From Flavobacteriaceae bacterium (GTDB lineage Bacteria; Bacteroidota; Bacteroidia; Flavobacteriales; Flavobacteriaceae): 36,936 nucleotides of DNA. The first letter of the stretch is position 1. Each line of letters begins with the position of its first letter. Location of the stretch: positions 1-36,936 of the forward strand of contig WGBX01000171.1 in NCBI GenBank assembly GCA_015494075.1. The letters are read 5' to 3'. Shown here piece by piece: positions 15,382 to 24,837 of this stretch. Both the position numbers and the translations under genes were made by a program. The notes under the pieces were generated by a model. It searched no databases, was not told the DNA's origin, and saw only the letters and a program-made list of their open reading frames with translations.

Positions 15382-16977
15382 TTATGAAGAAATAATTTGG
15401 ATAACGCTAGCTTTTTGTGCTTTTAATATTTGTTCAAAAGCCATTGGATTAACTGATGTTAATAGGTTGAACCGGTCGATAATCACTATAGGTTTTTCTT
15501 GTAAAATACCACGGGCAAATGCTAAAAATTCTTTCTGTAAATCATTCAATTGTAAGCCATTTTCTCCGATTGGATCATTCAAATTCAAATTTATTTCAAA
15601 TTTTTTTCGCAGTAGGTCATACGTGTTTTGAAGTCTTGTTTTAGTGTGTTTTGAACGGAATCTTGTAAGGGCTTCGTAAACGGTTTTTCCGGTAAATGGC
15701 AGTTGAAGTGAACTAACGGCTATATTTTGTCTAACAGAATGAGGTGAAAAATTTTTGATATTTTTACGGTTGATGCTTATTATTCCTGTGTAATTTTCTT
15801 TAATGCGTAAAAGCGCCAATATAATATCATTAGAAGAGACATTTTTGGGCAATTTAAGTTTGTTTACTTGACATTTTTCTACTTTAAAAAAGAAAGGTTG
15901 TGCACTATGAAATTGAACATTTTCAAATTGTATTACAGGTTTGTTGACTTTTAATTTTTCTCCTGACAAAACAGACTCTTGTTCTAATGAAAGTATATGA
16001 TTGAGTTTTGTTAATGAAATATTACCCAATTTATATACAGTTTCTACCATAAATAAACGTCTTATAACAGGCAGAATGGTGATGTAAAGTAAAATGAAAC
16101 TGATAAGATTACTTTGTGTAGCTTCATGTTTGGTAGTTGAAGCGTAAAAAATCCATAACACAATTGTTAAAATAAAATACTGGATAAAGGCAATAAAACC
16201 TTTGTTTATAACAAACCATTGGTTATATTTTATACTACTTTGTTTGACATATTCTGATCTTTTTTGATATTTTTTAAGCTCGGTTTTTTGCTTATTATGA
16301 GCAATAATATTAATGATACTATGTAGCGAACGGCTGACAAAAGATAATTGTCCTGAGGTTTTATTACGTTTTTGTAGAGAGTGCTCTTCAACTTTTTGGT
16401 TAATCCAACGTAATATTAAATAAAAAAACAGAGATAAAAATATTATAACAATACTGCCGGCATGATTTAATTTATATAGCCACCATAAGGCAATTATAAT
16501 CATTATGCTGTCGATTAAAACCCGGATGGTACCTTTTACATACAAATTTTTTAAACTGTTTATATCACCAGAATATCTTAATAAATATTTACCGATACCT
16601 TTATTTCTGTAAGTTTTATAATGTATATAAAGTTGATGGTTAAACAGGAAATCTTTTATTTCTTTGATAAATATTGCAGCTTCGCGACGTAAAAGGTATT
16701 CGTATAGAAAAAAAAATATAAATCGTAAAGTAATAAGTGCCAAAAATAAAATTAAAAATTTCGGTACGGTGTTCCACCAATTATCAGGTATAATTTTTAG
16801 TGACCGGACCCTTCGAGGATGCAAGTTAAAAAGCAGCTGATAATATTTGCCAATACTAACAGGAATTAAAATGGTCAAAACATTGGCTATAATTCCAATT
16901 AAAATTATTCCGATGCTTGCTTTTTTATGATGCTGAATATATTGCCAGATAAAATTTTTGTCAGATTTAAAGATCAT
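15382..16977 (-). CDS. ABC-exporter-like half transporter with catalytically dead nucleotide-binding domain
   Basis: This 531-residue protein has the frame of a type IV ABC exporter. There are about six transmembrane helices in residues 20-310 (for example SIGIILIGIIANVLTILIPV and FLILFLALITLRFIFFFLYE), then an NBD-like region from about 348. The NBD is degenerate. The Walker A position reads LPKNVSSNDIILALLRI (about 376-392) with no GxxGxGKS/T lysine. The signature expected after GENG reads LQLNDLQKEFLAFARGIL (about 475-492) in place of LSGGQ. Walker B reads PIVIIDRF with Arg501 where the catalytic Glu belongs. The protein stops at VIQIISS before an H-loop histidine. ATP hydrolysis is therefore very unlikely. 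The domain order and the GENG...AFARGIL scaffold remain, so this looks like a maintained pseudo-ATPase, not random decay. The gene overlaps the upstream P-loop NTPase gene by 11 bases. Confidence 0.8.
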   Translation of the reverse strand: MIFKSDKNFIWQYIQHHKKASIGIILIGIIANVLTILIPVSIGKYYQLLFNLHPRRVRSLKIIPDNWWNTVPKFLILFLALITLRFIFFFLYEYLLRREAAIFIKEIKDFLFNHQLYIHYKTYRNKGIGKYLLRYSGDINSLKNLYVKGTIRVLIDSIMIIIALWWLYKLNHAGSIVIIFLSLFFYLILRWINQKVEEHSLQKRNKTSGQLSFVSRSLHSIINIIAHNKQKTELKKYQKRSEYVKQSSIKYNQWFVINKGFIAFIQYFILTIVLWIFYASTTKHEATQSNLISFILLYITILPVIRRLFMVETVYKLGNISLTKLNHILSLEQESVLSGEKLKVNKPVIQFENVQFHSAQPFFFKVEKCQVNKLKLPKNVSSNDIILALLRIKENYTGIISINRKNIKNFSPHSVRQNIAVSSLQLPFTGKTVYEALTRFRSKHTKTRLQNTYDLLRKKFEINLNLNDPIGENGLQLNDLQKEFLAFARGILQEKPIVIIDRFNLLTSVNPMAFEQILKAQKASVIQIISS

Positions 16978-18034
16978 TGACAGCTAGTTTTTGCATTTCT
17001 GGTATATTACTAAAAACTTGATTAAATTGACGTTTATTCATAAAATCTTCTAAGGTAAAAATAGGAATATTTGTTATTTGTTTTGTTTCTTCGATCATCA
17101 GTGGACTTGCTGTAAACAATCCGGATAATAGAATAGGTTTTTTACCTACATTTTTTAAAAATTCAATACCACTTTTAACAGATAGACTATCGGCACATGA
17201 AAGAATTGTGTTATCTATAATTTGCATAAAGGGTTTGTAATTCAGTAAGTTTTTGGTTTCACGTTGTAACAATCCATCAGCAATTTCAATAATAACGACA
17301 TCAGGTTTTTCAGGTTCTATTTTACGGAGTAAACTTTCGAAAAGATTGAGTAAATCATTGGTGTCACATAAATATGTAGAAGGATAGCCACAATAGGAAA
17401 AATCTATAGCTTTGTCAGCACCACAATCTCTAACAAAACTACAATCTTTGGCATAAACTGTTCCGGTAAGTTTTATGAAAGCAACCTTTTTTCTTTGTTG
17501 TTTAAAAGCACGACTTAAATATGCAGCAGTAGTGGTCTTACCACTATCCATACTAGCTCCTAATGATAAGTAGACTGTATAGTCTCTTTTTTTGAACGGG
17601 TTAAATTTTTCAGGTTTGTCTTGATAAAATTTGGTGTTAATAACTTGGTTATTATTATCTACTGCATAGCCTATAAGTTGGACTTCTGTCGGCCCGATAT
17701 CTTCATATTTGGCATGCATAGATTTTAATATTCCAATTACACCACCTTGTCCTAAAATTTGGTAACGACTATAATATTTTTCAGGCAAATAACCTTCAAA
17801 TTGATTAGATGCATAACGTGTCCCAAATGTAGCTAATATCAGATCGCCAGGAAAAATATAGCTATTATTACCATTTACCCCTTGTAAAGCTTTGTGTTTT
17901 CCAATAGATAAAACTTTAAAAACTGCAACATCACCGGCTTTGGGCAAGTATGTTTTTTTTAGTTTTCGATTTATTTTATAATCATTAATATATTTCGTGA
18001 TGATGCTTCTTTTTATTTTTTTCATAGTGATCAT
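16967..18034 (-). CDS. SIMIBI-type P-loop NTPase (BioD/MobB/DUF1611-like) with N-terminal beta domain
   Basis: This 355-residue cytosolic protein has a Walker A motif GASMDSGKTTTAAYL (Gly159-Thr167 core, Lys166), then KVAFIKLTGTVYAKD (about 183-197), a Cys-rich stretch (Cys198, Cys204, Cys215, Cys223), and PDVVIIEIADGLLQRE (244-259) as Walker B-like segment. The order resembles dethiobiotin synthetase, MobB and DUF1611 proteins of the SIMIBI class. Residues about 33-125 form a separate beta-rich domain (GDVAVFKVLSIGKHKALQGV, IFPGDLILATFG) that I do not recognise. LLSGLFTASP near residue 302 is another distinctive motif. It lies two bases after the DUF2490 gene and overlaps the dead ABC-like gene downstream. 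An in-frame ATG at 18025 is an alternative start. Hypothesis: it powers or gates that membrane partner. Its substrate is unknown. Confidence 0.65.
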   Translation of the reverse strand: MITMKKIKRSIITKYINDYKINRKLKKTYLPKAGDVAVFKVLSIGKHKALQGVNGNNSYIFPGDLILATFGTRYASNQFEGYLPEKYYSRYQILGQGGVIGILKSMHAKYEDIGPTEVQLIGYAVDNNNQVINTKFYQDKPEKFNPFKKRDYTVYLSLGASMDSGKTTTAAYLSRAFKQQRKKVAFIKLTGTVYAKDCSFVRDCGADKAIDFSYCGYPSTYLCDTNDLLNLFESLLRKIEPEKPDVVIIEIADGLLQRETKNLLNYKPFMQIIDNTILSCADSLSVKSGIEFLKNVGKKPILLSGLFTASPLMIEETKQITNIPIFTLEDFMNKRQFNQVFSNIPEMQKLAVNDL

Positions 18035-18036
18035 TA

Positions 18037-18822
18037 TTATAGTTTATACCCAATTGTTAGTCCCCAAACATTGAAATCATAAAAACTTCTCCTTATATTG
18101 TTTGTATTCGGATTGAGACTATTAAGTTCATTGCCTCCAAAAAGTTGAGTATTAAACTCTGTTTGTCGTAAGTAGTAAATATTGAAAGACCAATTTTTTG
18201 CCGGATAAATTTTAACTCCTGTTTTAATACGATAAGCATGAAGCCCGTCTGTAGAAGCCAAAATAGTAGTATTTCCATCACTATCATAATACTGTAATAG
18301 GCGACCATTTTGATACCAATAAAGTTTTTGAGAAATATAAGGCCTCATTTTCCAAGGCATTTTACGTTTATTTTTATATTCGATATCTAGGCGATAGTAA
18401 AGGCGTTCTTGCCATTTTGATCGCTGGGTAAAATGATATTCGGCTACCAAAAAGTTTTTCACATATATATGGCGTGTTATTTTATTACTGACCTTTATTT
18501 TAGCACTTACTCTATGATAAACCAGTTGATTGCCGGCTATGTCATCTAATGAAAATGTAGGTGTATAATTAATCCCTGTTGACCAGTGTTTTGACAATTT
18601 ATAAGTTATACCGAAATCTGATTGTATAAAATTCATTTGACCATTATCCATATTAAATGAATTGAGCTGAAAATAATTTAACTTCAGATGCTTATTTATT
18701 TTTTTTTGAATACTAAATGAGCTCCAAAACATTTGTTGATCAGTTTCTGTGATTTGTGCATAAAATGTTAAGTGTAAACTTAAAAATATTAGGAGTAAAA
18801 ATGGTTTTAAAGAAATTGTCAT
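18037..18822 (-). CDS. DUF2490-family outer-membrane beta-barrel
   Basis: This 261-residue protein has a cleavable signal (MTISLKPFLLLIFLSLHLTFYAQ). The body is made of alternating beta-hairpins rich in aromatic girdle residues, with SDFGITYKLSKHWSTGINYT, the core KWQERLYYRLDIEYK, and a C-terminal FNVWGLTIGYKL ending in a hydrophobic/aromatic strand, as expected for BAM-inserted barrels. The pattern and length match DUF2490, a Bacteroidota family without assigned function. It is first in a three-gene unit; the next gene starts two bases beyond its stop. It may be the outer-membrane member of an envelope system with the two downstream products. No promoter box is obvious in the short gap to the terminator at 18858-18896. 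Confidence 0.75.
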   Translation of the reverse strand: MTISLKPFLLLIFLSLHLTFYAQITETDQQMFWSSFSIQKKINKHLKLNYFQLNSFNMDNGQMNFIQSDFGITYKLSKHWSTGINYTPTFSLDDIAGNQLVYHRVSAKIKVSNKITRHIYVKNFLVAEYHFTQRSKWQERLYYRLDIEYKNKRKMPWKMRPYISQKLYWYQNGRLLQYYDSDGNTTILASTDGLHAYRIKTGVKIYPAKNWSFNIYYLRQTEFNTQLFGGNELNSLNPNTNNIRRSFYDFNVWGLTIGYKL

Positions 18823-18857: not shown

Positions 18858-18896
18858 AATTTAAAGCCGTTTCCTAAAAAGAAACGGCTTTAAATT
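18858..18896. terminator. Strong hairpin, transcription terminator
   Basis: A perfect 16-base inverted repeat (18858-18873 and 18881-18896) with a 7-base loop starts two bases after the stop codon of the 19572-18898 lipoprotein gene. It separates that unit from the DUF2490-led operon. T-rich flanks are present but not a classic T-run. Confidence 0.75.
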
Positions 18897-18897
18897 T

Positions 18898-19572
18898 TTA
18901 ATCATCATGCTCGTGCTCATCAAAATCCATGATATTATCAAAATTCTTCTCTATAATATCCTGAAAATCGGAATTGGAATTTGCATTGATGCGGATTACC
19001 CCATCAGCATCAACACTAGCAGTTGCTAGGTCAACTCCTGTAAACAAAGAGGAAAGGTCCATTTGAAGTACAAAGGTTACTAAATCACCGGCTTGTACTG
19101 ATAAGCCATTTTCATTTTTCACTTTAAATTCCGCGTCAACTTTAGATGTAAATTCAAATTGGAATGTTGTTGTACCTACGGTATAAGTACCACTTAGTTC
19201 TAATGAGTTTCCTGTTGCTAATACATTGTCAAATTTTACTTTAACTTCATGATAAACTCCGGGTTCAATTTCTACATTTGGTAGAGGAGGTGTGCTGGTA
19301 CCGGTTAAAATGTCAAAGCTATAAGCACCTTGGTACTTATATTCTTGATCATCTCCGTCTAGTTCTTTTTCAAATTTAATTTTACTAATGCCGACTACAG
19401 CTTTACTAAAACTAAATGTGCCAACTACAGATGCTTTATCCAAGCTTTTTGCCGCAGTTGCAGAGGTTTCTTCCACAGTAAAATTAGCTTCTGCCATATC
19501 TGAGTCTGTATCGCAACTTGATAAAATACTTACGAGCATCAGCATACTTAGAAATTTGAGTGTTGTTTTCAT
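18898..19572 (-). CDS. DUF4382-like lipoprotein
   Basis: This 224-residue lipoprotein has a signal MKTTLKFLSMLMLVSILSSC with the lipobox cysteine at 20. The mature part is a beta-rich domain with alternating strands such as VEIEPGVYHEVKVKFDNV, SGTYTVGTTTFQFEFTS and LVTFVLQMDLSSLFTGVDL, which resembles the DUF4382/carbohydrate-binding-like lipoproteins of Bacteroidota. The extreme C-terminus is acidic and histidine-containing (DFDEHEHDD) and could bind a metal ion. It follows the repeat lipoprotein by 48 bases and is followed immediately by a terminator, so the two form a bicistronic unit divergent from the ECF sigma factor. Function unknown; a surface ligand-binding partner for the TonB receptor is an inference from position. 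Confidence 0.65.
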   Translation of the reverse strand: MKTTLKFLSMLMLVSILSSCDTDSDMAEANFTVEETSATAAKSLDKASVVGTFSFSKAVVGISKIKFEKELDGDDQEYKYQGAYSFDILTGTSTPPLPNVEIEPGVYHEVKVKFDNVLATGNSLELSGTYTVGTTTFQFEFTSKVDAEFKVKNENGLSVQAGDLVTFVLQMDLSSLFTGVDLATASVDADGVIRINANSNSDFQDIIEKNFDNIMDFDEHEHDD

Positions 19573-19620: not shown

Positions 19621-20694
19621 TTACGGACAAGTGCTGATTAATTTCATTTTGTTGTTATCGTCTATCTCTAATTTAATTTTGTTGTCTTGGCCATCTTGTT
19701 TTATTTCTTCTAAAATCCAAGTACCGGAAAAGTCAGGAAGAGATGTTAAATCAATTTGCAGGGTGATTGCCGTTCCTGTATCATTTGTGTGCCATTGCCC
19801 GGTATAGGTTTGTGTACCATTGGTAACAGTAAGGCTGCCATTACTTAAAAAAGTTAAAAAATAATCAATGTATTGACTTTCTAAATCTGTATCATGTCTT
19901 TCGAGTTCATCTATTTGCCATGACGGACAGGTTGTTAAGACAGTTATTAATTGTTGTGTTGAACAACTGGCACAATCATCGTCATTGTAGTCGTTATCAT
20001 CATCTTCATCACAGTCATCTTTATGCAGATTAATCACAGTTATCATTTCATTTAGATCATAAACGGTTATTTCCGATCCGTCGTGCAATTTTAATTTTAC
20101 AGGAAAACTAAAGTTAATCACAATATTAGAATCCAAATCATTAATGATATCCTGTAATTCTTCATCATTAAATATTGTCAAATCTTGTCTTTGTTCGGTT
20201 ATGGTATTATATACTTGTATGTTTACTGGATATACAAAATCAATGCATTCAATATCTTCATCTGCTTCATTTTCATCAGTAGATTGTGCTACATATGTAT
20301 TTAGTTCAGTTTGATTATGTACTACAACTTCTGTATAATCAGGTAAAATGATAGTTACCGGAAATACAATTTGAATGCTGTCGATATCCACATCAGATGC
20401 ATCTAAAATATCTTCAACCGTTTGCAAATCATCAGTTGAAGAGATGACAACTGTCTGCCCGTTGACAATAACGGTATAAGGCATTTTAATGCTGATATTA
20501 TTGGCATTATCAATAATATTATCAAATGACCCGTCATTAAGGCTTATATCTTTAAGTATGACAGCAGCGGTAGTGCCGGCAGTAATACCTTCATTATCTG
20601 TTCCTGTTTCATTTATTGTAATTTCTTTACGACAAGAAAGACTTAAAAAACTCAAAAAAAACAGACTGATTGTTATTAATATTATTTTTTTCAT
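19621..20694 (-). CDS. Lipoprotein with four beta-repeats, Asp/Cys-rich linker and lipocalin-like C-terminus
   Basis: This 357-residue lipoprotein has Cys21 after a hydrophobic signal. Residues about 67-98, 107-138, 151-187 and 192-223 are four copies of one unit: an I-x-x-x-[FMY]-P strand, a turn with D/N-G, a second strand V-x-V, then an acidic helix (for example IQIVFPVTIILPDYTEVVV and NFSFPVKLKLHDGSEITVYD). Next comes a stretch of Asp/Asn with four cysteines between 228 and 256 (DDCDEDDDNDYNDDDCASC), a plausible calcium or metal site. Residues about 260-357 (LTFLSNGSLTVTNG, TGQWHTNDTGTAITLQIDL) look like a small lipocalin-like barrel. I recall similar repeat lipoproteins in many flavobacteria, none with a known role. 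It is divergent from the ECF sigma gene and is preceded by a hairpin abutting its start codon. Confidence 0.7.
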   Translation of the reverse strand: MKKIILITISLFFLSFLSLSCRKEITINETGTDNEGITAGTTAAVILKDISLNDGSFDNIIDNANNISIKMPYTVIVNGQTVVISSTDDLQTVEDILDASDVDIDSIQIVFPVTIILPDYTEVVVHNQTELNTYVAQSTDENEADEDIECIDFVYPVNIQVYNTITEQRQDLTIFNDEELQDIINDLDSNIVINFSFPVKLKLHDGSEITVYDLNEMITVINLHKDDCDEDDDNDYNDDDCASCSTQQLITVLTTCPSWQIDELERHDTDLESQYIDYFLTFLSNGSLTVTNGTQTYTGQWHTNDTGTAITLQIDLTSLPDFSGTWILEEIKQDGQDNKIKLEIDDNNKMKLISTCP

Positions 20695-20859: not shown

Positions 20860-21366
20860 ATGATGAAGAATCTTTGTCTTGAAAAAATATTTGAAGCAGT
20901 TTATAAAAAAATATCTGAGGATTTATTTAAATTTCTTTATTATAAATACGGTCCGCATGATGAGTTAGATGATGTTGTACAAGAATCTTTTGTAAAACTT
21001 TGGCGCAATTGCCAAAAAGTACAACCTGAAAAAGCGCGTGGCTTTTTATTTAAAGTTGCAAAAAATATAATGCTTAACAAATTTAAACATGAAAAGGTTG
21101 TTTTAAATTATCAGAATAATATGCTTAAAAATATTGAGCATGAAACGCCTGAATACCTTTTAGAGGAAGCTCAATTTTATCAAAAATACCAGCAAGCTTT
21201 AAGTAAACTTACAGATGAACAACGTGTAGCCTTTTTATTGAATAAAGTAGAAGGGAAAAAACATAAAGAAATAGCCGAAATGCTAAATGTTACACAAAAA
21301 GTAGTTGAATATAGAATCTATACAGCTTTTAAAATTATTAAAGGAGAAATAAAAGAATTTAAATAA
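20860..21366 (+). CDS. ECF-type RNA polymerase sigma factor
   Basis: This 168-residue sigma-70 family protein has only regions 2 and 4. Region 2 contains ELDDVVQESFVKLWRN (about 37-52), which binds the core enzyme and the -10 element. Region 4 contains LTDEQRVAFLLNKVEGKKHK followed by a helix-turn-helix, EIAEMLNVTQKVVEYRIYTA. The order sigma, FecR-like regulator, TonB receptor on one strand is the Bacteroidota cell-surface-signalling arrangement, in which the sigma factor is released when the receptor binds its ligand and then drives transport genes, often including its own receptor. The recognition helix has Gln (VTQ) where Ser is more usual. A gap of 50 bases separates it from the FecR gene. 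Confidence 0.93.
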   Translation: MMKNLCLEKIFEAVYKKISEDLFKFLYYKYGPHDELDDVVQESFVKLWRNCQKVQPEKARGFLFKVAKNIMLNKFKHEKVVLNYQNNMLKNIEHETPEYLLEEAQFYQKYQQALSKLTDEQRVAFLLNKVEGKKHKEIAEMLNVTQKVVEYRIYTAFKIIKGEIKEFK

Positions 21367-21416: not shown

Positions 21417-22319
21417 ATGGATCAAGAAAAATTACTACAAAAATGGCTTAATGACCAATTAACAGAGACCGAAAAGCAGGCTTTTGAGCAATTGCCGGAT
21501 CATAATTTAAATATGAAAATTATCGAAGCGGCCAAACGATTTAAAGCACCTGATTTTCCTATTGATTCGAAATTTAAGTTATTACAATACCGATTAAGAA
21601 ACACGCACAACAAAGTAAGACCAATGTACTTTGCATGGATGTATCGTGTAGCAGCCATTTTAGTTTTGGCTTTAATAGCCTATTTTTATATAGCCTCAAA
21701 TAATGTCCAAATTTTTACCGGTAACAATGATCAAAAACGAGTGTTGCTGCCAGATGCTTCATTAGTCATTCTGAATCAGTCTTCTAGTTTAGAATATAAC
21801 AGTATTTTATGGTATTTTAAACGCCGCATAAAAATGGACGGAGATGCTTATTTTAAAGTGCAAAAAGGTTCTCGCTTTGATGTTCATACCAGGCATGGGG
21901 TGGTAAGTGTTATAGGGACTCAATTTGAGGTAAAAAGTTATATGCAGCTTTTTGAAGTTAAATGTTTTGAAGGTGTTGTAAGCGTTCAAACTTCTCAAAA
22001 AAATATTATTCTAACCCATGGCGAAGCTGTTGTAGCCCGGAAGGACCAAATTAAAAAAATCTTGATGACTCAAAAGCAACCACAATGGTTAACTAATGAA
22101 ATCAAATATAAAAGTACTCCTTTAGCTGTTGTTTTACACGCATTAAAAAAACATTATGGAGTAAAAATTGTTACCAAATCTGTTGATACAACTAAATATT
22201 ATACTGGAAGTCTTATAACAGATAACTTAAACTTAGCACTTGAAGTTATCACCAAAGCTTTTGGCTTAAAATATTATATTGATCAGACACAAAAAACCGT
22301 TATTATAAGTGGGCAATAA
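21417..22319 (+). CDS. FecR-like anti-sigma / sigma regulator
   Basis: This 300-residue single-pass inner-membrane protein has a cytosolic N-terminal region of about 70 residues, a transmembrane helix at about 74-93 (WMYRVAAILVLALIAYFYIA), and a periplasmic FecR domain with RVLLPDASLVILNQSSSL, KMDGDAYFKV, FDVHTRHGVVSVIGTQFEV and VKCFEGVVSV. The last 85 residues form the DUF4974 C-terminal domain (YKSTPLAVVLHALKKHYGV), the part thought to contact the receptor's STN domain. It transmits the receptor's signal across the inner membrane to the sigma factor. The TonB receptor gene begins four bases after its stop. Confidence 0.93.
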   Translation: MDQEKLLQKWLNDQLTETEKQAFEQLPDHNLNMKIIEAAKRFKAPDFPIDSKFKLLQYRLRNTHNKVRPMYFAWMYRVAAILVLALIAYFYIASNNVQIFTGNNDQKRVLLPDASLVILNQSSSLEYNSILWYFKRRIKMDGDAYFKVQKGSRFDVHTRHGVVSVIGTQFEVKSYMQLFEVKCFEGVVSVQTSQKNIILTHGEAVVARKDQIKKILMTQKQPQWLTNEIKYKSTPLAVVLHALKKHYGVKIVTKSVDTTKYYTGSLITDNLNLALEVITKAFGLKYYIDQTQKTVIISGQ

Positions 22320-22323
22320 AGTT

Positions 22324-24837
22324 ATGCAGCAAATGTTAACCGCTGTATTGCTATTGATAATTTTAGAATTTAATGCGCAAACGAAACCATTAAATAATAT
22401 CCAGCCACTAACAGCGGTTTTATCACATATAGAAGACAAATTTCACTGTCGGTTTACCTATGCAGATGAAGTCGTTAGGGCTATATATATATCACCTTTA
22501 CCTCAAGATTTGTCTTTAAAGGAGACATTGGCATTTTTGCAACAACAGAGCGGATTGATTTTTAATATTTTAACACCTCGTCAAATTGTTATAGTTGCTC
22601 CAGAACGTTCTTATTTATTTTGTGGTTATCTTTTAGATAGTCAAACGAACCAGCCGGTCAATAAAGCGGTAATACGTATTCAAGGCAGGTATGTTCTTTC
22701 CGATAATAAAGGTTATTTTGCTGTCCGTTTAATGCAATCAACCGCAAACTTATGGATATATCACCAGTCTTACAAAACTACTTCTAAACAAATTAACTAT
22801 AAAAAAGGATTTGCTTGCCCTAAAATTTATTTAAATCCTAAAATTAACATTTTATCAACTGTTTTTTTGCAAAATATAATTGCAGAAGGCATTCATAAGC
22901 AGATTAATGGTGCAACTGAAATTAATTTGAAAAAATTTGGCATTTTGCCCGGGTTAATAGAGCCTGATGTCTTACAAACATTGCAAGCATTACCAGCTGT
23001 AAAAAGTGTAGACGAAAAGGTATCAAATATTAATATAAGAGGTGGCACCAACGATCAAAATCTAATTTTATGGGATGGTATCAGGCTTTATCAGACCGGC
23101 CATTTTTTTGGTTTGATTACAGCTGTTAATCCAAATATGGTCAATAAAGTTACTTTAATTGAAGATGGTACTTCTGCTTCATACACCAATGCCGTATCCG
23201 GAACCGTTTTAATGACTTCTAAACAAAATATCCCAAAAGATATAGAAGCAAATGCCGGTGTTAATTTTATCAATACAGATATATGGGTAAATATCCCATT
23301 AGGGCAAAAATCAGGGTTGGAGATCGGCGCGCGTAAAGCTATTAGTCAATTTTTGGAAACGCCTACTTACACTAAATATTATGAACGTATTTTACAAAAT
23401 ACAGAAGTTAATAACCGGAGTTTGTCCGAAAGTAATACTTATATTAATTTTGATTTTTACGATTTTGCTTTAAAATACTTATACCGACCGACCTCAAAAG
23501 ATTTATTACAACTTAACTGGATGTATATTTCTGATAATTTCAATTATAATAAAAATGCTGTCTTAGCCGGCTTGCCACAAGAAAAAGCAGGAGCTTTACA
23601 GCAAGACAATATGGGCGAAGGTCTTTATTGGGAGCATAATTGGAATGCAAATTTTAAAAGTTATGTCCAAATTTATGAAACGGACTACAAACTAGAAGCG
23701 CAAGACTCAGATTTAACACAACCTCAAACATTAGATCAATCTAACACCGTTTCCGAAACTTCTGTTAAAGCATGGACTACTTATCAAATAAATCCGCAAA
23801 TGTATTGGACAAATGGTTATCAATTTTTAGAAAATGGGACCGGAAATTTGACAAAAATCGATCAACCGCGTATCATAAACTATGTTAAAGAAGTGATGCG
23901 CGAACATGCTGTTTTTTCTCAATTGCATGCTGACTGGAAAAACCATAAATTCAAAATGCTTTTGGGTTTACGACAAAACTATTTAGAAAAAACAAATAGT
24001 TTTTTATTTGAACCGCGTTTCCATCTTAATTATAAGTTTAATACGTATTGGCATATGGCTTTATCAGGTGAATTAAAGCATCAGTTCATATCTCAGATAA
24101 TTAATTTTCAAACAGATTTTTTAGGTATTGAAAAAAGACGTTGGCGTTTGTCAAATGGTAGAGATGTGCCTGTTATAAAAAGTAAGAATGTCTCTTTGGG
24201 TATCACTTTTAATAAGCATGGCTGGCTGTTTAGTGCAGAAGTTTATTACAAAGATGTTCAAGGAATTACGGCGCAAAGTCAAGGATTTGTTAACCAATAT
24301 ATGTATACACAAGCCATCGGTGCTTACCAAGTCACAGGTGTTGACATTTTGCTTAACAAAAGAGGCCGGTATTTCAGCACTTGGCTAAGTTATGCTTATG
24401 CGCATAATTTTTATACATTTGAAGATTTTGAAGAGCCTTACTTTCCAAATAATTGGGCACTCGAACATACATTTACTACCGGTTTAACTTATCACTATCA
24501 GGCTTTGCAAACTTCCATTGGATTGAATTGGCATAGTGGTAAACCGACAACTTTGCCTGACACCGATCAACCTGTAAATCAGAATAGTATTAATTTTGAT
24601 CAAGCAAATGCTGTTAATTTACCCGATTATCTTCGATTGGATTGGTCGGCCAATTATAAATTTAAATTATCTGATCATTTAAAAATGCAGGTTGGCGCAT
24701 CTATTTGGAATTTGACGGCACGCACCAATATATTAAGTCGCTATTATCGGTTAGACGAGAACCAAAATCTCATTGAATACCAGCAAAAATCTTTGGGATT
24801 TACGCCTAATTTAAGTGTTCGCTTGGCTTGGAATTAA
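22324..24837 (+). CDS. STN-containing TonB-dependent outer-membrane receptor
   Basis: From ATG 22324 this is an 837-residue receptor. It has a signal peptide (MQQMLTAVLLLIILEFNAQT), then an STN signalling domain at about 25-90 (FHCRFTYADEVVRAI, LKETLAFLQQQSGLIFNI) that touches FecR. A carboxypeptidase-regulatory-like beta domain follows at about 95-165 (GYLLDSQTNQPVNKAVIRIQ), then a plug at about 195-300 with NINIRGGTNDQNLILWDGI and GTSASYTNAVSGTVLM, and a 22-strand-type barrel ending in FTPNLSVRLAWN with a terminal aromatic. A GTG at 22309 lies inside the FecR gene and is less likely as the start. There is no SusD partner, so the ligand is probably a small molecule or metal chelate, not a SusCD glycan. 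Its stop codon interlocks with that of the convergent HemD-like gene. Confidence 0.9.
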   Translation: MQQMLTAVLLLIILEFNAQTKPLNNIQPLTAVLSHIEDKFHCRFTYADEVVRAIYISPLPQDLSLKETLAFLQQQSGLIFNILTPRQIVIVAPERSYLFCGYLLDSQTNQPVNKAVIRIQGRYVLSDNKGYFAVRLMQSTANLWIYHQSYKTTSKQINYKKGFACPKIYLNPKINILSTVFLQNIIAEGIHKQINGATEINLKKFGILPGLIEPDVLQTLQALPAVKSVDEKVSNINIRGGTNDQNLILWDGIRLYQTGHFFGLITAVNPNMVNKVTLIEDGTSASYTNAVSGTVLMTSKQNIPKDIEANAGVNFINTDIWVNIPLGQKSGLEIGARKAISQFLETPTYTKYYERILQNTEVNNRSLSESNTYINFDFYDFALKYLYRPTSKDLLQLNWMYISDNFNYNKNAVLAGLPQEKAGALQQDNMGEGLYWEHNWNANFKSYVQIYETDYKLEAQDSDLTQPQTLDQSNTVSETSVKAWTTYQINPQMYWTNGYQFLENGTGNLTKIDQPRIINYVKEVMREHAVFSQLHADWKNHKFKMLLGLRQNYLEKTNSFLFEPRFHLNYKFNTYWHMALSGELKHQFISQIINFQTDFLGIEKRRWRLSNGRDVPVIKSKNVSLGITFNKHGWLFSAEVYYKDVQGITAQSQGFVNQYMYTQAIGAYQVTGVDILLNKRGRYFSTWLSYAYAHNFYTFEDFEEPYFPNNWALEHTFTTGLTYHYQALQTSIGLNWHSGKPTTLPDTDQPVNQNSINFDQANAVNLPDYLRLDWSANYKFKLSDHLKMQVGASIWNLTARTNILSRYYRLDENQNLIEYQQKSLGFTPNLSVRLAWN

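Follow-up and report, generated by a model that had tools for sequence, protein, structure and literature searches.

An ABC-derived membrane protein with a degenerate ATPase and its soluble P-loop partner form a conserved cassette in Bacteroidota

Introduction

How a transport protein comes to exchange its source of energy is still an open question, and within the fold of the ATP-binding cassette (ABC) transporters the known case is SbmA, in which the docking loops are lost. SbmA is described as a proton-driven ABC-fold transporter without a nucleotide-binding domain (NBD), and the SLiPT transporters as having lost both the NBD and the coupling helices (PMC13316013). A three-gene cassette of a Flavobacteriaceae bacterium (assembly GCA_015494075.1, contig WGBX01000171.1, positions 1 to 36,936; the whole stretch of 36,936 nucleotides that was analyzed is referred to here as the window) encodes an ABC-exporter-like protein with a degenerate NBD, a soluble P-loop protein, and an outer-membrane barrel resembling DUF2490. 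The cassette is conserved and its P-loop and membrane genes are paired, the Q-loop and H-loop residues of the NBD are lost throughout the family, the NBD itself is gone in one genus, and a motif at the first intracellular loop (ICL1) survives that loss.

In many Bacteroidota, a pump whose engine has decayed or vanished is co-inherited with a specific soluble partner, usually together with a barrel. The reading tentatively favored here is that of a conserved export module, comprising a cytosolic N-acyl or amide synthase, an ABC-derived carrier whose ATPase would be dispensable, and outer-membrane parts. A single family displays graded states (with Walker A, without it, and without any NBD) alongside a kept docking element, and because these states coexist with a constant partner, the exchange of energy source can be tested within one family. 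Searches of the open-licence literature (for DUF1611, DUF2490, ABC proteins combined with DUF2490, and degenerate ABC domains) found no description of the cassette.

Conservation and co-occurrence of the cassette genes

The barrel, P-loop, and ABC-like genes, all on the minus strand, form a real trio, as a preliminary description of this stretch had held, with a 2-base gap (18035-18036) and an 11-base overlap (16967-16977); the open reading frames were called mechanically, longest first, which leaves their start positions uncertain. Among 60 genomes related to that of the window, 2 (the window genome itself included) have the P-loop protein, and one further locus (L034) is the third Flavobacteriales record with the cassette. 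Two distant members that were followed gave matches in 11 of 80 genomes (8 of them cassettes by their neighbors, 3 not) and in 10 of 78 (9 cassettes, 1 not). Some relative of the P-loop protein is present in 37 of 395 genomes drawn across the phylum, and the cassette clade in 9 of the 395 genomes of the class-wide draw (6 of them new). The resulting collection of 26 cassettes (three near the window, plus 8, 9, and 6) contains the P-loop gene together with an ABC or NBD-less membrane gene in every case, the two adjoining in 25 and separated by two genes in L112. The proposal of a single conserved unit is supported. A single clade (support 0.82) unites the 26 P-loop proteins, and the P-loop is invariant, its lysine (Lys166) being kept in all 26 members.

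The co-occurrence search suggested in the preliminary description gives a similar picture. Within the same draw, the membrane-domain profile and the P-loop clade pick the identical 9 of 395 genomes, so the two families are not found mostly apart. Membrane-domain scores in these nine range from 150 to 419 bits versus at most 115 among the next matches listed, and P-loop scores in the clade are at least 394 bits versus 264 in genome G187 and 84 in genome G191, the thresholds (394 and 150 bits) having been set after the gap was visible. Neither G187 nor G191 has a clade-type membrane protein to go with its P-loop relative. For most genomes in this draw five candidates were scored, meaning that members could be missed, and three of the nine genomes (the window genome G000, G095, and G168) helped to build the models, the other six being independent. 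All counts given here ignore kinship, for which reason Fisher values are not counted as evidence. The three trees (P-loop, membrane, and barrel) have correlated distances (r 0.65, 0.54, and 0.76, each reached by 0 of 2000 permutations), as is expected of genes inherited together; shared host ancestry alone could give the same result.

Decay and loss of the nucleotide-binding domain

The window ABC protein carries an unambiguous membrane domain (Pfam ABC_membrane, 77.3 bits versus a cut-off of 28, E=2e-21) and can be aligned to Sav1866 (2hyd) over residues 12-504, while its ABC_tran match (PF00005, 20.2 bits) falls below the cut-off of 25. The sequence LPKNVSSND stands at the Walker A site and LNDLQ at the signature site, the Q-loop glutamine and the H-loop histidine are missing, and Walker B ends in D-R. 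The earlier view that this copy has lost Walker A, signature, and catalytic glutamate and yet keeps the exporter layout is confirmed, with one correction: the glutamate loss is peculiar to the window copy, and the nearest homologue (L083) has D-E.

A motif census of the clade's 18 full-length ABC proteins, with the 6 NBD-less forms counted apart and the genes of L122 and L159 truncated by contig ends, indicates that the decay is a family trait. The Q-loop glutamine and the H-loop histidine are each found in 0 of 18 proteins and LSGGQ likewise in none (LSxG[QE] in 9 of 18), whereas Walker A is present in 11 and lost in 7 (the window copy, L083, L034, L111, L118, L161, and L162). Intact close homologues had been named as something to look for; a complete catalytic set occurs in 0 of the 18. 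One genus lacks the NBD altogether: in its six collected cassettes (L065, L117, L119, L120, L121, and L124) the membrane proteins stop after the membrane domain, at 349-373 amino acids. Separate NBDs are known in other ABC systems, and an NBD encoded elsewhere in the genome could in principle serve these membrane proteins. No NBD gene is encoded beside any of the six within the cassette neighborhoods, and we consider such a supply extremely unlikely.

The Walker A loss of the window copy recurs in the trios of two further Flavobacteriales metagenome-assembled genomes, L083/L033 (69% identity to the window trio for the ABC protein, 75% for the P-loop protein, and 67% for the barrel) and L034 (63%, 70%, and 60%). 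The ratio of nonsynonymous to synonymous substitution rates (dN/dS) is 0.23 and 0.15 for the dead NBD (two of three pairs computable, dS saturated at 1.6-2.7) and 0.07 for the membrane part (a single computable pair, dS again saturated), all of these values being rough; within these limits the NBD of the window trio evolves faster than the membrane part, yet below neutrality. The dead motifs of the window copy, taken alone, would fit a broken transporter in the course of being lost. A pseudogene is disfavored because dN/dS is low (below 0.25), even if rough, and recent breakage was rejected on the same ground together with the open frames, the shared decay in three genomes, and the family-wide loss of the Q-loop and H-loop residues, which leave this explanation a negligible probability.

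Acidic residues at positions 92, 255, and 326 (window numbering) are fixed in the NBD-less genus and mostly missing elsewhere. These positions are possibly tied to an altered energy source. Together with the NBD-less members themselves and the precedent of SbmA, described as proton-driven and NBD-less (PMC13316013), they could point to an ABC fold turned secondary transporter, in which the P-loop enzyme would modify the cargo without touching the carrier. Such a proton-driven carrier is distinctly unlikely, given that the acidic positions come from one genus and are not aligned to SbmA, that most members still have an NBD on which purifying selection acts (a rough estimate), and that the best-conserved stretch of the protein is the ICL1 motif.

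Retention of the ICL1 motif

The decamer GKYLLRYSGD aligns with the segment of Sav1866 that follows the first intracellular loop, the place of that loop in Sav1866 being one we take as given. No other decamer of the family is as well conserved (mean majority share 0.93 over 24 sequences), and the same is true of the six NBD-less forms considered by themselves (0.92). Around it, at aa 112-145, full-length and NBD-less forms have the consensus residue in common at 70% of 23 positions, compared with 44% of 149 positions overall. The second intracellular loop (ICL2) behaves differently: its stretch at aa 200-235 shares the consensus at only 36% of 25 positions, a result that is against, or at best neutral toward, a simple docking story. 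Neither stretch contains large gaps in the family.

These observations bear on the earlier proposal that the soluble NTPase replaces or controls the missing ATPase, of which the coupled unit has been borne out and the supply of ATPase activity stays a hypothesis. As a replacement motor, the P-loop ATPase would dock on the dead NBD or on ICL1 of the membrane dimer and drive transport. The obligate pairing of the two proteins, the invariant P-loop lysine, and the retention of the ICL1 motif despite NBD loss, unlike in the SLiPT transporters (PMC13316013), are all consistent with such a motor. Weighing in the other direction, 11 of the 18 partner ABC proteins keep Walker A, ICL2 is not specially kept, the nearest P-loop relatives look metabolic, and a more distant relative outside the clade (L068, 5264-8939) adjoins a DUF2490 barrel and an ABC exporter whose motifs are intact. 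This last locus shows that a dead engine is no precondition of the partnership. We know of no precedent for a replacement motor and regard it as unlikely. A further reading, likewise unlikely, is synthesis-coupled export, in which a P-loop synthase would have taken over the docking site of the coupling loop, product making would drive or gate passage, and the exporter ATPase would then have decayed and finally vanished. A link to cyanophycin through the L068 exporter was rejected, its match to the NCBIfam model CphA_assoc_ABC (391 versus a cut-off of 880) being far under the cut-off and no better than that of other exporters.

Relatives of the P-loop protein in arginine operons

The window P-loop protein stays below the cut-off of every Pfam and NCBIfam model. 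Its Pfam matches to CbiA, AAA_26, and DUF1611_C are weak, and DUF1611 membership was rejected on the score of DUF1611_C (PF07755; 14.5 bits versus 25). The cassette protein is homologous over its full length, if remotely, to P-loop proteins of arginine operons (hhalign 99.7%, 308 columns, 21% identity). The arginine-type sample consists of 13 of the 37 genomes with some P-loop relative, six of them previously read as arginine operons and seven not, and the loci read include L069, L071, L072, L077, L078, and L079. In L069 the order is argH, an ArgE/DapE-type deacylase, argB, acetylornithine carbamoyltransferase, argD, argC, the P-loop gene, and argG, as named by NCBIfam-type models, with argH, the deacylase, and argD under equivalog or subfamily cut-offs.

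In 13 of 13 genomes of this sample argG is a neighbor of the P-loop match, and a GNAT gene is missing in 12 of them; the remaining genome (G088) has one, far from argG. Where argG was found without an arginine-type P-loop protein, a GNAT gene stands directly before it in 8 of 8 genomes (G000, G095, G168, G187, G191, G568, G877, and G672). This includes the window genome, in which argG lies on contig C153 behind its GNAT gene and the cassette P-loop gene is not beside it. A GNAT protein is described as the N-acylglutamate synthase of the Bacteroides type (PMC7311316). Judging from their place, the GNAT genes seen here would be of that type; no NCBIfam model matched them at E 1e-20. The arginine-operon P-loop proteins probably make N-acylglutamate and are candidates for a non-homologous substitute for the enzyme that carries out the first step of arginine biosynthesis. 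They hint at a possible unrecognized P-loop N-acylglutamate synthase, which GapMind-type annotation would be expected to miss; the open-licence literature offered nothing fitting on these proteins. For the cassette protein, a related synthase acting on a different substrate is likely.

A second set of relatives points the same way. The sister clade of the cassette P-loop proteins (L066, L067, and L123) has, in 3 of 3 loci, a P-loop gene overlapping by 4 bases with an Asparaginase_2/beta-aspartyl-peptidase-like gene, and relatives of that peptidase lie 2-6 genes away in 4 of the 26 cassettes (L108, L157, L160, and L161). Because some full-length relatives occupy the place in arginine operons that GNAT has in other genomes, and a further group is paired with beta-aspartyl-peptidase-like enzymes, we take an amino-acid N-acyl or amide synthase to be the more likely identity of the cassette protein.

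Several observations weigh against the export module built on that identity. The substrate, product, and activity of the P-loop protein are predictions from sequence relatives, and the arginine role of those relatives is itself something that we infer. The cassette protein is not an arginine enzyme: a role as the host's arginine synthase was rejected, since of the 10 cassette genomes in which both genes were sought, 6 carry argG together with GNAT and 4 lack the two (argG was not found in 9 of 25 cassette genomes searched, that of L034 left out). Alignment to DUF1611 is confined to the P-loop region (hhalign 87%, 104 columns), AlphaFold models from three-sequence alignments are poor (pLDDT 49 and 47), the ICL2 stretch does not share the conservation of ICL1, and the cassettes have no constant neighbor of the donor, carrier, or tailoring kind.

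In the export module as proposed, the P-loop enzyme would use ATP or acyl-CoA to make an N-acyl or amide bond, its substrate being an amino acid or short peptide, and the ABC-derived membrane dimer would carry the product across the inner membrane, its own ATPase, degenerate family-wide, having become dispensable. Energy could come from the product gradient, the proton gradient, or a partner docked at ICL1, and the synthase may perhaps be docked on the carrier. We infer the chemistry from relatives and neighbors, and the direction of transport and energy source are likewise proposals. The DUF2490 barrel and the lipoproteins would act at the outer membrane, and a nearby set of ECF sigma factor, FecR, and TonB receptor, or of ECF sigma and anti-sigma factor, would probably switch the module in part of the family.

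Barrel, lipoproteins, and regulators

The window barrel scores 28.8 bits against DUF2490 (PF10677; cut-off 29.8), and those of L065 and L068 pass the cut-off (40.7 and 48.8 bits). A DUF2490 barrel is present in 22 of the 26 cassettes and missing, as far as the loci reach, in L109, L110, L112, and L122; the barrel, taken earlier for an outer-membrane exit or receptor, is frequent without being constant. DUF4382-like lipoproteins occur in 6 of 26 cassettes, including L083 and four NBD-less ones. Membership of the DUF4382 lipoprotein in the module is uncertain; the seeds of the neighbor profiles were picked by eye, so the unity of the group is partly imposed, and the DUF4382 score is 20.4 versus a cut-off of 25 in L120, with no match at E 0.01 in L117.

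In 9 of 26 cassettes the P-loop gene has an ECF sigma homologue within 2-5 genes, and FecR relatives lie near 5 of 26. Combined with the lost ATPase motifs, these regulators might suggest a membrane scaffold or sensor without transport, in which the ABC-like dimer would anchor the P-loop enzyme and signal to the sigma/anti-sigma system. Since nearby ECF and FecR genes turned up for only a minority of the cassettes (contig ends cut some of the loci) and a barrel so widely present fits transport better, a sensor is very unlikely.

The features of the window are collected in Table 1. The hairpin between the lipoprotein gene and the trio is perfect, with 18 pairs (-21.8 kcal/mol, z -8.3, minus strand), and no T-run follows it on the minus strand; scans for promoters (42 versus 34.6 +- 6.1) and terminators (2 versus 2.2) are at chance level. 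At the contig end (2-1617, minus strand), a gene pair resembles an AbiEii/AbiEi toxin-antitoxin by eye. PADLOC gave no match for the ABC and P-loop proteins, and a defense system was rejected, the weak Csx20 matches of the barrel (E 0.001) being read as chance.

Table 1. Cassette genes, motifs, and neighboring features of the window.
Feature	Position	Strand	Basis or remark
ABC-exporter-like protein, 531 aa, degenerate NBD	15382..16977	-	open reading frame, Pfam, motif check
LPKNVSSND, aa 376-384, degenerate Walker A site	15826..15852	-	
GKYLLRYSGD, aa 129-138, clade-specific motif at ICL1/start of transmembrane helix 3	16564..16593	-	Sav1866 alignment; ICL1 position as presumed by us
Soluble P-loop protein, 355 aa, probable amino-acid N-acyl or amide synthase	16967..18034	-	
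P-loop GASMDSGKTT, aa 159-168, contains Lys166	17531..17560	-	
DUF2490-like outer-membrane barrel, 261 aa	18037..18822	-	
Strong hairpin between lipoprotein gene and trio	18858..18896	-	
DUF4382 lipoprotein, 32.2 bits versus cut-off 25	18898..19572	-	
Second lipoprotein-like gene	19621..20694	-	adjoins the cassette in L083 and L034 too
ECF sigma factor, divergent	20860..21366	+	
FecR anti-sigma factor	21417..22319	+	
TonB-dependent receptor-like protein, Plug domain	22309..24837	+	

Comparison with known systems

For the P-loop protein, Foldseek on the poor model recovers only the broad P-loop class at TM-scores of about 0.3, with BioD (ranks 14, 21, and 23), CTP synthase, and SRP-type proteins as the nearest folds. 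DgcN, presumably a D-glutamate N-acetyltransferase, resembles the cassette protein in the P-loop region of DUF1611_C, whereas the cassette protein has another N-terminal domain and scores under the cut-off. A DgcN-DgcA pathway is named in the literature; a DgcA-type dipeptide epimerase gene was not seen by eye among the cassette neighbors, no family search having been aimed at it. The arginine-operon P-loop proteins are alike in their full-length homology and differ in operon context and at 17 positions, which are fixed in the cassette proteins and rare in the 13 arginine-operon relatives.

For the membrane protein, SbmA/BacA and the other SLiPT transporters share an ABC exporter fold without a working ATPase, and the NBD-less genus resembles SbmA in having no NBD. 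Unlike them, the window copy retains a degenerate NBD (absent in 6 of 24 family members), and the cassette has a P-loop partner and a DUF2490 barrel. The family also keeps ICL1 as its best-conserved part, whereas the SLiPT transporters have lost the coupling helices (PMC13316013). With regard to the SbmA glutamate ladder, acidic positions are fixed only in the NBD-less genus and are given in window numbering, not SbmA-aligned. Type IV ABC exporters such as MsbA and Sav1866 share the membrane domain and overall exporter layout; the cassette protein departs from them in lacking a functional ATPase motif set, in carrying GKYLLRYSGD at ICL1 instead of the usual sequence, and in having a constant P-loop partner.

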